Below, piece by piece: positions 5,139 to 12,075 of a DNA stretch of 64,000 nt (the stretch's first letter is position 1; each line of letters opens with the position of its first letter). The stretch is taken from assembly GCA_947462535.1 (NCBI GenBank), contig CANHPN010000005.1, positions 1 to 64,000 of the forward strand, read 5' to 3'. The notes under the pieces were generated by a model. It did not search any database. It was not told where the DNA came from and worked only from the letters and a program-made list of their open reading frames with translations. Made by a program: the position numbers and the translations under genes. Source of the stretch: Akkermansiaceae bacterium (GTDB lineage: Bacteria; Verrucomicrobiota; Verrucomicrobiia; Verrucomicrobiales; Akkermansiaceae).

Positions 5139-6641
<1,503 letters not shown>

Positions 6642-7535
6642 TCATTCCATGGCTTTCATGGCCGTGGTGATTTCGAGAAGCTCGGCGGTGATGGCTCCCT
6701 GGCGGAGCTTGTTGTATTCGAGCGTGAGCTCCTTGATGAATTTCTTCGCGTTGTCGGTCGCGGATTTCATGGCAACCATACGCGCGGAGTGCTCGGAAGC
6801 GCGGGCTTCCATGAGGGCCTGGAAGACCTCGTAATTGACGTAAAGCGGAAGGATCGCGGCGAGCACGCCGGCCGGGCTTGGCTCGAAGATGTAGTCGCAC
6901 GCAGCATCGTTCTCGTGCTCCTCAACCTTGAATCCCGCGCCGATTTCCTCGAACGCCTGTTCCTCGCCCTTACGGTGGCCCTGGATCGGCAGAAGCGTCA
7001 CGACCTCGGGCTCCTGGCGCAGGGTGTTCACGAAACTGGTGAAGGCGATGGAAACCTTGTCATAGTTTCCGTCGAGGAACTGTTGGGTGATGAACTTGGC
7101 GATCGGGCGGGCCTGGGAGAAAGGCACCGGGTCCTTGACGGTGAAATCCGCGATCACCTTGATGCCGAGCTTTTCAGCCATCGTGCGGAGCTTGCGGCCG
7201 ACGGTCACGAAGTGCGCGTCAGGCGAAGCCTGCAACTTGATCTTGCGGGCGAGGTTGGTGTTGATAGGACCGCAGAGCCCCTTATCGGTAGAGATCACCA
7301 GCACCAGCTCGCGGCCGCCCTGACGGCGCTCTAGCAGCGGGTGGGATTCCTCGCCGAAGTTCTTGCGCATGTCGAACAGCATCTGGGTGAGCTGCTTGGC
7401 ATACTCACGCCCGCCGAGCGCTTGGTCCTGCGCCTTCTTCATCTTGGCGGCAGCGACAAGCTGCATCGCGCGAGTGATCTGCGCGGTGTTTTTGACCGAC
7501 TTGATGCGTCGGCGGATGTCGCGGAGGTTTGCCAT
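6642..7535 (-). CDS. atpG: F1F0 ATP synthase subunit gamma
   Basis: Rotor gamma subunit, 297 residues. N-terminus MANLRDIRRRIKSVKNTAQITRAMQLVAAAKM and C-terminal helix ending KLRQGAITAELLEITT are the two coiled-coil strands that enter the alpha3beta3 ring; STDKGLCGPINTN is the conserved central motif. Length is normal. It lies 51 bases downstream of atpA, and the spacer contains a short repeat (see findings). Confidence 0.97.
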   Translation of the reverse strand: MANLRDIRRRIKSVKNTAQITRAMQLVAAAKMKKAQDQALGGREYAKQLTQMLFDMRKNFGEESHPLLERRQGGRELVLVISTDKGLCGPINTNLARKIKLQASPDAHFVTVGRKLRTMAEKLGIKVIADFTVKDPVPFSQARPIAKFITQQFLDGNYDKVSIAFTSFVNTLRQEPEVVTLLPIQGHRKGEEQAFEEIGAGFKVEEHENDAACDYIFEPSPAGVLAAILPLYVNYEVFQALMEARASEHSARMVAMKSATDNAKKFIKELTLEYNKLRQGAITAELLEITTAMKAME

Positions 7536-7586: not shown

Positions 7587-9128
7587 TTATTTCCAGGACT
7601 TCTTGAAGTCCTCGATGCCTTGGCTGACAGCCTCGACCATCGCCTTGTCCTTTTTAAGATCCGGCTTTTCGTTGCGGATCTTGTCGAGGAGGTCGCCCTT
7701 GCGGGTGTTGAAGAAATCACCGAGCGCGGCTTGGAAACGCTTTACGTCGGCGACGGAGACGTCGTCGAAGTAACCGTTCTGCATCGCGAAGAGATAGATG
7801 GACTCCATCTCCATGGCCAGCGGGCTGTATTGGTTCTGCTTGAAGAGCTCGACGATGCGGGCACCGCGATCGAGCTTCTTCTTGGTGGAAGCATCAAGGT
7901 CGGAACCGAACTGGGCGAAGGCCTGAAGCTCGCGGTACTGGGCGAGGTCGAGCTTGGTGGTGCCGGCGACGGACTTGATCGTCTTGGTCTGGCAGGCGGA
8001 CCCCACGCGGGATACCGAGAGGCCGACGGAGATCGCCGGGCGGACACCTTGATAGAAAAGGTCGGTTTCCAGGTAGATCTGGCCGTCGGTGATGGAGATC
8101 ACGTTGGTCGGAATGTAGGCGGAAACATCGCCGGCCTGCGTCTCGATAATCGGCAGAGCGGTGAGCGAGCCACCACCCGCGGCTTCGGATAGACGGGCGG
8201 AACGCTCAAGCAACCGGCTGTGGAGGTAGAACACGTCACCCGGATAAGCTTCACGGCCGGATGGGCGGCGGAGAATCAGCGACACCTGGCGGTAGGCGAC
8301 GGCGTGCTTGGAAAGGTCATCGAACACGATCAAGCAGTCCTTGCCCTGATCCATGAAATACTCGGCGATGGCGCAACCTGCGTATGGAGCGAGGTATTGC
8401 ATGGCGGCGGCGTCCGAAGCGGATGCGGAAACGATGGTGGTGTATTCCATCGCGCCGGCGTCTTCGAGAATCTTCTGGGTCCGTGCGACGTTAGAGAGCT
8501 TCTGGCCGATGGCGACGTAGATGCAATACATCGGCTTGTGGTTCTGCAGCTTGCCGTTTTCCGCCGCCTTGTTTTGCTGGGCTTGGGAAATGATGGTGTC
8601 CACGGCGATGGTGGTCTTGCCAGTGGAGCGGTCGCCAATGATGAGCTCGCGCTGGCCGCGGCCGACGGGGATCATCGCGTCAATGGACATGATGCCGGTC
8701 TGCACGGGGACGGAAACGGACTTCCGCTTGATGATGCCCGGGGCGATCTTCTCCATCGGGTAGAAAGCGGCGGCGGCGATGTCGCCCTTGCCGTCGATGG
8801 GAGCGCCGAGCGCGTTGACTACGCGGCCGAGGACGGCCTCGCCGACAGGAACGGAGAGGAGTTTGCCTGTGGTGCGGCATTCGGCACCTTCCTTGACGGC
8901 CGCGTAGTCGCCGAGGAGCACGACGCCGACTTCGCTTTCCTCAAGGTTGAGCGCCATCCCGGTGACGCCGCCACCGAACTCGATCATCTCGTTGAGCATG
9001 ACGTCGGAGAGACCTTCGACCTTGGCGACACCATCACCGACCTGGCGGACGGTTCCGACGTTAGTTTTAGCGACGGAGGAAGTGATTCCGGCGATCTGTT
9101 GTTCGAGTTCTTGAAGGATGCTGCTCAT
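7587..9128 (-). CDS. atpA: F1F0 ATP synthase subunit alpha
   Basis: Non-catalytic nucleotide-binding alpha subunit, 513 residues. P-loop is GDRSTGKT (usual GDRQTGKT), followed by AVDTIISQ. The sequence [20 protein letters not shown] and the [12 protein letters not shown] stretch are family hallmarks. Length is normal for bacterial AtpA. Fourth gene from the end in the canonical order, 39 bases after atpH. Confidence 0.98.
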
Positions 9129-9167: not shown

Positions 9168-9560
9168 TTAGAAGGCGTTGGCGAGGCGTTCGAGGCGCCC
9201 TTGGACCGAGCCGTCGAAAACGTCGTTGCCCACGCGGATGCGGAGACCACCCAGAAGGGCGGGAGTGATTTGATATTGGACCACGAGGCCGGGTCCATAC
9301 TGGTTGGTGAGACCGGCGACCACGCGCTGGCGGGTCGAGTCGCCGATTTCCACGGCGCTCTCGACGGTCACCTCGCGGCGCTCGAGCTCGAGGCGGGTCA
9401 GGCGCTGGATCGCGGAGAGGATCGCCTTGTAGTCACGCGGCTTGGCCTCGATAAGGCGGGCAACGACGGTGCGCAGCTTGGACTCGTCAAACCGGCCATC
9501 CGTCTGGCAGAACCCAAACAGGCGGCGGGCGCTGGCAGCGGCGGTTTTGGAAATCTTCAT
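9168..9560 (-). CDS. atpH: F1F0 ATP synthase subunit delta, short form
   Basis: Peripheral-stalk delta subunit. The C-terminal signature is clear (TPALLGGLRIRVGNDVFDGSVQGRLERL), and position between atpF and atpA fits. The protein is only 130 residues against about 175-180 for most bacterial delta subunits. The missing part is from the N-terminal helical domain that binds the alpha subunits. No open extension in the same frame reaches farther upstream with family similarity: the frame begins 27 bases after the atpF stop. So the gene is genuinely compact in this operon rather than mis-started. Confidence 0.9.
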   Translation of the reverse strand: MKISKTAAASARRLFGFCQTDGRFDESKLRTVVARLIEAKPRDYKAILSAIQRLTRLELERREVTVESAVEIGDSTRQRVVAGLTNQYGPGLVVQYQITPALLGGLRIRVGNDVFDGSVQGRLERLANAF

Positions 9561-9587: not shown

Positions 9588-10139
9588 TCAACCTTCGACC
9601 GTAGCGAGCGCGTCCTCGTTGATGCGCTTCTGGTCGTCGGCGGTGAGTACCTTGCCGGTAACCTGCGAGGTGGTGGCGGCGACCAGGCGGCCGAATTCGC
9701 GCTTCAGCTCGCTGCTGAGGCGGTCGCGGTCAGCCTTGGCGGCGGCTTCCGCCTTGACGAGGATCTGTTGGGCGCTGGCGATCGCCTCCTGGGCTTTCTG
9801 CTCGGTAAATAGCGCGGCTCCCTGTTTGGCCTCGTTGATCAGGCGGACGGCCTCGTCGTTAGCCTTGGCGATGGCGGCGGCGGTGGTCGCTTCGGACTCC
9901 GCGAGCTGCTGCTCGATGCGCTTGAGCTTTTCCTCGCCTGCGGCGATTTTCGAGCGGCGCTCCTCGAGCATCGCCTGGATCGGGCCGAACGCGAATTTCT
10001 TCAGCAAGAGCGCGACGATCAGGAAGCTGACACACTGGGAGATGAAAAGCGACCAGGTGACGTTGAACGTCTTCATGATTTCACCCACCACGCCTTCGGA
10101 TTCGGCGGCGGGGACTGCGGCAAGGAGATCGAACATCAT
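9588..10139 (-). CDS. atpF: F1F0 ATP synthase subunit b
   Basis: Peripheral-stalk b subunit of 183 residues. One transmembrane helix (about residues 25-48, TWSLFISQCVSFLIVALLLKKF) is followed by GPIQAMLEERRSKIAAGEEK and a long charged helix typical of the dimeric b stalk. It lies between atpE and atpH in the standard order; the 90-base spacer after atpE is the largest inside the downstream part of the operon. Confidence 0.96.
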   Translation of the reverse strand: MMFDLLAAVPAAESEGVVGEIMKTFNVTWSLFISQCVSFLIVALLLKKFAFGPIQAMLEERRSKIAAGEEKLKRIEQQLAESEATTAAAIAKANDEAVRLINEAKQGAALFTEQKAQEAIASAQQILVKAEAAAKADRDRLSSELKREFGRLVAATTSQVTGKVLTADDQKRINEDALATVEG

Positions 10140-10229: not shown

Positions 10230-10442
10230 TTACTTGGCAAGGAAGATCGCGAAGAAGACGATACCTTCGATAAGCGCCGCGAGAATGATCGACAGCGTGA
10301 GGATGCTGCCTGCGGCACCTGGGTTGCGGCCGGTGGCTTCAGCAGCCTTGGAGCCGAGGAGGCCGATTCCGAGTGCGGCACCGATGGCAGCGAAGGCGAC
10401 GTGCATGTTACCGGAAAGTTCGGCAAGGATTGGAGTCAACAT
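10230..10442 (-). CDS. atpE: F1F0 ATP synthase subunit c
   Basis: Proteolipid c subunit, 70 residues, two transmembrane helices with the polar loop GRNPGAAG (residues 39-46). The ion-carrying acid is Glu59 in ILAALIEGIVFF. It is followed by Gly, and the Gln/Ser/Thr ligands of sodium-type c rings are not seen, which points to proton coupling (inference from c-ring knowledge). The ATG at 10442 is chosen because an upstream in-frame start at 10481 would add residues of no family similarity. Confidence 0.96.
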   Translation of the reverse strand: MLTPILAELSGNMHVAFAAIGAALGIGLLGSKAAEATGRNPGAAGSILTLSIILAALIEGIVFFAIFLAK

Positions 10443-10514
10443 GATATAATTAGTTTGGTTGTTGGTTTTTCCGATTCCCACAGTTTATTCCATGGTCGAA
10501 TACGGGAAATCGTT

Positions 10515-11405
10515 TTAGTGGGAATGCTCGCTCTCTTCGTCGTGATCGCCATGGTCACAGATCAACTTCAGGAAGACCGCGGTGAGCAGCATGAAGACAA
10601 GGGCTTGGATCAAGCCGACCAGCAGCTCCAGAAAATAGAATGGCAGCGGAGGCAGCCAAGCCAAGTATTTGCCGCCCATCAGCATCATGTTTTCCAGGAT
10701 GTTTTCACCGGCGAAGATGTTTCCATAAAGACGGAAGGACAGCGCCACCGGGCGGAAGAGGATGGAAATTACTTCGAGGACGCCAACGAACCCGAATACG
10801 ACGAGCATCATCAGGCTCATGATTCCGGAGAACTTGCCCTTGGGCGCGAAGATGTGGGCGAAGAAACCCTTCAAGCCGTTTTCGGTGACCGCCCAGTAAA
10901 ACCAAAGCAGTGCGAAGGTAAAGGCCATCGCGGCGGTCATGTTCAAATCCGCGTTGCCGCCGCGAAGGAAGGGGCGGAACGTGTCATGCGGATCCACGCC
11001 TGGCCCGCTCAACTGCCAGCCGAATGTGCCCACACCAGGAATCAAACCGAACCAGTTGGTGAAAAGAATCAGAATGAAAATCGTCCCGAAGAACCAGAAC
11101 GTCCGCTTCACTAGCTGCTTGCCGAGGATGCCTTCGAGGAAATTATACAAGCTCTCGACCATCCACTCGACGAAGTTCTGCAAGCCGCTCGGCACGGTGG
11201 TCATCTTACGCGTCGCCAGCTGCGCCACGATGATGATGAAGGCGGCGACGATCCAGACCATCAGCATCGAGTTGGTCACCACGAAAGAACCGAGGCGAAG
11301 GATCTCCTCCGCATTCGCCGGAAGATGGTCGTGCGTTTCTGACCCCGCGAAAGCAGAAATCAATCCGAAGAGCCAAACGATCGAGGTGGAGAGGAAAAAA
11401 CGCAT
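10515..11405 (-). CDS. atpB: F1F0 ATP synthase subunit a
   Basis: Membrane stator subunit a, 296 residues, first gene of the operon. The conserved half-channel sequence FRPVALSFRLYGNIFAGE contains the essential Arg; the FTNWFGLIPGVGTFGW motif is also diagnostic. A probable signal-like first hydrophobic segment (MRFFLSTSIVWLFGLISAFAG) precedes the mature region, and the C-terminus is rich in His, Asp and Glu (CDHGDHDEESEHSH). No atpI or other atp gene is found upstream. A Rex-type palindrome lies 68 bases upstream of the start. Confidence 0.96.
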   Translation of the reverse strand: MRFFLSTSIVWLFGLISAFAGSETHDHLPANAEEILRLGSFVVTNSMLMVWIVAAFIIIVAQLATRKMTTVPSGLQNFVEWMVESLYNFLEGILGKQLVKRTFWFFGTIFILILFTNWFGLIPGVGTFGWQLSGPGVDPHDTFRPFLRGGNADLNMTAAMAFTFALLWFYWAVTENGLKGFFAHIFAPKGKFSGIMSLMMLVVFGFVGVLEVISILFRPVALSFRLYGNIFAGENILENMMLMGGKYLAWLPPLPFYFLELLVGLIQALVFMLLTAVFLKLICDHGDHDEESEHSH

Positions 11406-11799
11406 GCAAGGAGCCTGCTGACGGCGGGCGCGGGGTCTTTAATGAATCGCCGCCAACCTCCGCAAGTTCTATTTGTGAAAAATTTCACAAGCTCGGAAGA
11501 ATCCGCTGTTTGAAAAGGGATGGAATCTCAAAAGCGTGAAGTCACAAGCGGGCGAACGATTCCTGCCGCCAGCCTGTGACGCCGCCGGCTTCCGAAGCGG
11601 AAACGCCACGGGCACGGACGCGCCAACCTGACTTAACACAAAAGCCGGTATGCCCGCCGCGGTCCGCCGATCGCCGGATCCCGCGCGGCGCAGGCTAGAA
11701 ACGCCCTGCAAGTCAAGCCACCACTGCGGAAAACTCCCTTTATTTTCAATAGATTTTCTCTTGCCAAGCCCCGGTGCCATTCTCAGAAACGTCGCTGCC
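11406..11799. other. Divergent intergenic region between the atp operon and the HU-like gene
   Basis: No convincing gene is seen in these 394 bases; open frames here lack family similarity and mostly mirror the HU gene. The region must carry the atp promoter (minus strand) and the hup promoter (plus strand). It contains the Rex-type palindrome listed separately and an AT-rich stretch (CCTTTATTTTCAATAGATTT, about 11739-11757) in front of the HU gene. Confidence 0.6.
11473..11490. promoter_or_regulatory. Rex-type operator upstream of the ATP synthase operon
   Basis: Perfect dyad TTGTGAAAAATTTCACAA: two eight-base arms with a two-base centre. It matches the known Rex consensus TTGTGAA-N4-TTCACAA exactly and lies 68-85 bases before the atpB start, where a promoter would be. 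It also fits the CRP half-site spacing TGTGA-N6-TCACA. Rex is a NADH/NAD+-sensing repressor that in other bacteria controls respiratory and ATP synthase genes. No rex gene is in this window. Confidence 0.7.
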
Positions 11800-12075
11800 A
11801 TGAACAAATCTGAATTGATCGAAGCCATCCAAGCCGCTCTCGGCAAAGACGCCACCAAGCGTGCCGCCGACGAAGCCCTCGAAGCGGTCCTCTCCTCCAT
11901 CGCCGCTGGCGTGAAGAAGGACCAGAAAGTCCAAATCATCGGATTTGGAACCTTCGAGGTCAAAAAGCGCGCCGCACGCCAAGGTCGCAACCCGAAGACG
12001 GGTGAAGCCATGAAGATCGCCGCTTCCAAGTCGGTCGGCTTCAAGCCTTCGTCCGTCCTCAAGGCCAGCGTGTGA
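11800..12075 (+). CDS. hup: HU-family DNA-binding protein
   Basis: Small nucleoid-associated protein of 91 residues. N-terminus MNKSELIEAIQAALGKDATK and the DNA-binding arm QGRNPKTGEAMKIAASKSVGFKPSS are characteristic of HU. The ATG at 11800 gives the normal length; the frame is open to 11650 but that extension has no similarity to the family. A strong terminator follows at 12122-12149. IHF is less likely because the arm is the HU type. Confidence 0.95.
   Translation: MNKSELIEAIQAALGKDATKRAADEALEAVLSSIAAGVKKDQKVQIIGFGTFEVKKRAARQGRNPKTGEAMKIAASKSVGFKPSSVLKASV

Follow-up and report, generated by a model that had tools for sequence, protein, structure and literature searches.

A Rex-type palindrome precedes the atp operon

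The window, a stretch of 64,000 nucleotides from an Akkermansiaceae genome (GCA_947462535.1, contig CANHPN010000005.1), carries on its minus strand an operon that begins with atpB, the gene for ATP synthase subunit a (10515-11405; PF00119, 1.4e-44). The open reading frames behind it on the same strand putatively encode subunits c (atpE-like, 10230-10481, with alternative start codons possible), b (atpF-like, 9588-10139), delta (atpH-like, 9168-9560), alpha (atpA-like, 7587-9128), gamma (atpG-like, 6642-7535) and beta (atpD-like, 5139-6602). Upstream of the atpB start codon (position 11405), with its nearest base 68 positions away, the window sequence reads TTGTGAAAAATTTCACAA (11473-11490). The preliminary description had reported a perfect 18-mer at this place and distance, and both were found as given. 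The palindrome is unique in the window when up to three mismatches are allowed (mean of 0.05 in shuffled sequence) and is a perfect match to the general Rex consensus TTGTGAA-N4-TTCACAA, which is given as TTGTGAANNNNTTCACAA in PMC5317091. A divergent gene for an HU-type DNA-binding protein lies upstream of the atp operon (11800-12075; PF00216); with about 310 bp between its start and the operator, it is probably not a target.

Six nucleotides downstream of the palindrome is the sequence CTTGC (11462-11466, minus strand), which resembles a -35 core promoter element; the overlapping hexamer TTGCGG (11465-11460) would be the -35 box. A spacer of 18 nt separates this hexamer from TAAAGA (11436-11441, minus strand), a putative -10 element in a block that is partly conserved. 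If transcription starts accordingly, the operator would cover about -61 to -44, i.e. the UP-element zone adjoining the -35; it sits over an AT-rich, UP-like stretch and does not overlap the putative -35. A simple sigma-70 scan called no promoter at the place of the operator and CTTGC.

The spacing between the end of the operator and CTTG was fixed in related genomes. Of 40 atpB promoters, 38 had a spacing of 6 nt and the other two one of 17 nt, which corresponds to the addition of one helical turn (11 bp) to the 6 nt. The distance was 4 nt before nuoD (17/17) and nuoB (15/15), and 5 or 6 nt before nuoG (19/19). No CTTG element followed the operator of actA in 17 out of 18 genomes, so that the geometry of this site differs. 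The AtpB proteins of the window's own genome (G000) and of G001 are only 63% identical, though their ActA and NuoB proteins are 100% identical; judging from these sequences, an exchange of the atp operon seems to have taken place, unless one of the assemblies is chimeric. Both atp copies keep the operator with the same spacing.

The same site lies before other respiratory genes of this genome

We searched the whole of G000 (2.82 Mb in 104 contigs, 95% complete) for TTGTGA-N6-TCACAA. Four perfect palindromic sites and two with one mismatch were found, compared with a single match to the reversed control when one mismatch was allowed. The perfect sites precede atpB in the window, nuoG (contig C15, with nuoH behind it), nuoD (C19) and actA (C31), while one of the one-mismatch sites precedes nuoB (C50). 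The label actA is our own, given because of a multihaem cytochrome match and because ActD, a protein of alternative complex III, is encoded nearby; the genes behind actA encode a large iron-sulfur/molybdopterin-like protein, an NrfD-type protein, ActD (PF11821) and a cytochrome c. The operator of nuoD (L016:6855-6872) overlaps the 3' end of the upstream open reading frame (5406-6860), the stop codon of which is the TGA within TTGTGA. The other one-mismatch site (C17, L019:5222) lies inside a coding open reading frame, presumably that of an oxidoreductase, and was treated as a chance occurrence.

The targets are NADH-oxidizing or respiratory genes, and no fermentation genes were seen in the regulon. 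Sites had been predicted before cyd, nuo or ldh genes; those before nuo were indeed present, while none was seen before cyd or ldh.

The genome encodes a canonical Rex

The rex homologue that the preliminary description had proposed to look for was present as a single gene in G000 (C15:21790; PF06971, 1.5e-19). The encoded protein comprises the winged-helix and NAD(H)-binding domains and is a canonical Rex as assessed with the NCBIfam Rex model NF003995 (2.3e-69) and a solved Rex structure (5zz5, 3.5e-44). Ten of the 12 DNA-contact residues of Thermotoga maritima Rex, taken from PMC8836258, are identical in the G000 protein, as is the GxGxxG loop.

In G000 and 14 further genomes, rex sits behind the pyruvate dehydrogenase genes for E1-beta and E2 (15 locus records beyond G000 were examined, G004 being represented twice), and in most genomes examined the next genes are one for an ECF-type sigma factor and a conserved open reading frame adjoining it. 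All of these are found on C15 of G000 (L015:504-5199). Because rex follows the E1-beta and E2 genes, its co-expression with pyruvate dehydrogenase is likely, and the NADH sensor would thus probably be made together with a source of NADH. As to autoregulation, TTGTGA-N6-TCACAA was absent from all 15 rex locus records.

Operators and Rex occur together in congeneric genomes

Across 73 congeneric genomes we counted 222 perfect sites, versus 5 for the reversed control. Rex scored above the cut-off (PF06971) in 43 of these genomes, all of which have 2-6 perfect sites. A further search for rex in the remaining 30 found nothing; 25 of them had no site, three had one and two had five. The latter two, G005 and G067, which keep their sites without a detectable rex, reflect either assembly gaps or a recent loss of rex.

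AtpB was found in 69 of the 73 genomes (G034, G065, G080 and G093 gave no match, the additional, second fragment of AtpB in G033 was not counted, and the protein of G082 is partial). Among the genomes with Rex, 40 of 41 carried the operator before atpB, compared with 2 of 28 among those without (Fisher p of 1.4e-15, a value that overstates the association since the co-loss was mostly one event, described below, and the test treats genomes as independent). G081 has Rex and lacks the atpB operator. Operators were present with Rex and lost without it, except in G005, G067 and G081, and mostly within one clade. The preliminary description had regarded two findings as incompatible with a Rex operator, namely a genome devoid of rex and a palindrome that is not conserved upstream of atpB in close relatives; rex is present, the palindrome is kept in all but one of the Rex-bearing relatives compared, and the proposed Rex operator is upheld.

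The other targets were scored in a subset of 30 genomes (20 with Rex, 10 without). Perfect operators were found before actA in 18/19 genomes with Rex and 1/9 without, before nuoD in 16/20 and 0/9, before nuoB in 14/19 and 0/10, and before nuoG in 19/19 and 1/8, respectively; both positives among the Rex-less genomes belong to G005. In G024 and G013 actA lies at a contig edge and was not counted. The counts also omit the partial nuoG of G036, nuoB of G061, where the divergent copy alone was found, and three genes for which there was no match (nuoD in G028, nuoG in G068 and in G073). Additional sites were found in relatives before ndh-2, encoding type II NADH dehydrogenase, and nuoF. The nuoD match of G010 (L148, C246) carries six in-frame stops and is for this reason either a broken or frameshifted copy or an assembly error.

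The operator is also found in other families of the order

Outside the family, perfect sites were present in 22 of 22 genomes of the order (2-13 per genome; none for the reversed control), and Rex was found in 20 of them. Of the 15 sites whose loci are given, 13 precede NuoB, NuoG, NuoF, ActA or AtpB; the other two lie before open reading frames that we take to encode AtpG and a transketolase.

We also inspected up to 400 bp upstream of atpB in 80 named loci, among them those of Luteolibacter, Haloferula, Roseibacillus and Rubritalea. The cultured species Luteolibacter pohnpeiensis (L233) is one of those with the operator at atpB. A perfect operator was found in 46, an operator with one mismatch in 10 and one with two mismatches in a single locus, while 23, many of which are named as other orders, had three or more; the reversed control gave no hit at one mismatch or fewer. 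Five of the public MAG records used (L230, L234, L238, L250 and L299) are titled Akkermansia muciniphila. These titles look wrong, because the AtpB proteins place some of these records with Luteolibacter-like genomes.

Loss of Rex is accompanied by decay of the operator arms

In a tree of four respiratory proteins from the 30-genome subset, nine of the ten Rex-less genomes fell on one side of a branch (support 82/96), while the tenth, G005, was placed beside G004, which has Rex. This tree calls for two changes of Rex and two of the operator. With nine of ten Rex-less genomes in one clade, the co-loss is best seen as mostly a single event, and none of the independent-pairs tests was significant. 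An AtpB gene tree gave seven changes of Rex and six of the operator; we rejected these as independent losses, since AtpB conflicts with the remaining respiratory genes.

The operator arms carry 2.0 bits in genomes with Rex (n = 37) and 0.1-0.7 bits at most positions in those without (n = 28), in which the AT-rich centre is partly retained. Of the 40 sequences with an operator, 37 were used here, without G023, which reaches a contig edge, and without G059 and G083, which have the 11-bp insertion. The 28, with G005 and G067 among them, were aligned on CTTG, so that this element scores there by construction. A CTTGC or CTTGA-type element is kept before atpB in 28/28 Rex-less genomes. Operators that are complete but for one mismatch remain upstream of nuoD in G078 and of nuoG in G085. 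The decay of the arms next to a persisting CTTG core fits the loss of a repressor better than that of an activator.

A second, divergent complex I was seen in 7 of the 10 Rex-less genomes of the subset and in 2 of the 20 with Rex. In these copies (e.g. L149 and L179) NuoD is about 45% and NuoB about 60% identical. The loss of Rex may thus be associated with the presence of a second complex I.

Discussion

The operator, the Rex gene, their conservation and co-loss, the set of targets and the fixed spacing are all computed from the genomes. As judged from these sequences, the palindrome is likely to be the operator of Rex, a repressor that senses NADH/NAD+, and, jointly with this explanation and just as likely, the about five operators of the genome would form an oxidative-phosphorylation regulon comprising complex I, alternative complex III and ATP synthase.

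The operator occupies an UP-like stretch and ends 6 nt before the -35-like CTTGC, so that repression by occlusion, relieved by NADH, appears the likeliest mode of action. At a low NADH/NAD+ ratio, Rex would occupy the operator, which covers AT-rich sequence immediately before the presumed -35, and keep RNA polymerase off the promoter; we infer that the contacts occluded are those of the alpha C-terminal domains and of sigma region 4. When NADH rises, Rex would be released, and the respiratory chain and ATP synthase would be made together. The presence of the same site before other respiratory-chain genes means that one NADH sensor probably sets the amount of the energy-making machinery.

The rigid distances between operator and CTTG (6 or 17 nt for atpB, 4 nt for nuoD and nuoB, 5-6 nt for nuoG), together with the location of the operator upstream of the putative -35 rather than on top of it, could also be read as the signature of an NAD+-dependent activator, in which case Rex would contact RNA polymerase upstream of the -35 and high NADH would turn the genes down. 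We consider this unlikely. The CTTGC core is kept in Rex-less genomes despite the decay of the operator, as expected if a repressor had become dispensable, and some atpB promoters elsewhere in the order (L311 and L320) have no CTTG in the stretch examined behind the operator. Furthermore, Rex represses atpI and nuoA1 in Streptomyces avermitilis, according to PMC5355995. A mainly structural role, in which the palindrome would serve the promoter as an AT-rich UP element or as a DNA-structure element and Rex would be incidental, could account for the partial retention of the AT-rich centre in genomes without Rex; it is very improbable, given that the arms of the palindrome persist only in genomes with Rex and that the same perfect palindrome precedes unrelated respiratory operons.

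The least probable reading is that of a site for a CRP/FNR-family regulator, which the preliminary description had offered as an alternative. The spacing formally fits (TGTGA-N6-TCACA), and HTH_Crp_2 scored above the cut-off in 19 of the 73 congeneric genomes, but G000, with 95% completeness, has no HTH_Crp_2 match. The sites track Rex rather than Crp: genomes with at least two sites have Rex in 43/45 cases and Crp in 7/45, and those with fewer than two have Rex in 0/28 and Crp in 12/28. In addition, every one of the 42 atpB operators has A at position 7 and T at position 12, two positions that the Rex consensus fixes.

Rex control of atp genes, which had been said to be known in a few phyla, is documented experimentally in S. 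avermitilis, in which Rex controls atpIBEFHAGDC, nuoA1-N1 and ndh2 through the same operator as that found before atpB in G000 (PMC5355995). The S. avermitilis regulon additionally has cydABCD, rex-hem, hppA and wblE. The Rex footprint at its atpI is described as 29 nt long, reaching from -50 to -22 and including the -35, whereas the position expected for the operator in G000 is about -61 to -44; a footprint of 29 nt at atpB of G000 would reach the edge of the -35. G000 and its relatives also differ in that rex is located behind pyruvate dehydrogenase genes, that the rex loci examined contain no operator and that alternative complex III is a target. Staphylococcus aureus Rex uses the same operator sequence, TTGTGAAW4TTCACAA, but its targets are anaerobically induced genes (PMC2883068), while those seen in G000 and its relatives are respiratory and ATP synthase genes. 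The comparison of Rex in 119 genomes from 11 taxonomic groups by Ravcheev et al. (2012), as relayed in PMC5886521 and PMC5317091, arrived at a generalized consensus and at NADH-oxidation targets that resemble ours. The preliminary description knew of no report for Verrucomicrobiota; our literature search likewise found none of Rex in this phylum, nor of Rex controlling alternative complex III, among open papers in PubMed Central, a scope that does not include the main comparative study.

On balance we lean towards the view that Verrucomicrobiales, and perhaps much of the class, have a Rex circuit devoted to oxidative phosphorylation alone, in which a sensor co-expressed with pyruvate dehydrogenase would set complex I, type II NADH dehydrogenase, alternative complex III and ATP synthase together, from an operator placed over an UP-like stretch rather than over the -35 or -10; one clade would have lost Rex and more often has a second, divergent complex I. 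If true, this would extend the control of ATP synthase by Rex to Verrucomicrobiota and link Rex to alternative complex III, for which it would be the first such case. The Rex-less clade, with its decayed operators and intact core promoters, would represent a natural experiment on the loss of an NADH-responsive switch, and the circuit as a whole would provide a testable rule for how a large and mostly uncultured group of bacteria matches its respiratory capacity to the supply of NADH.
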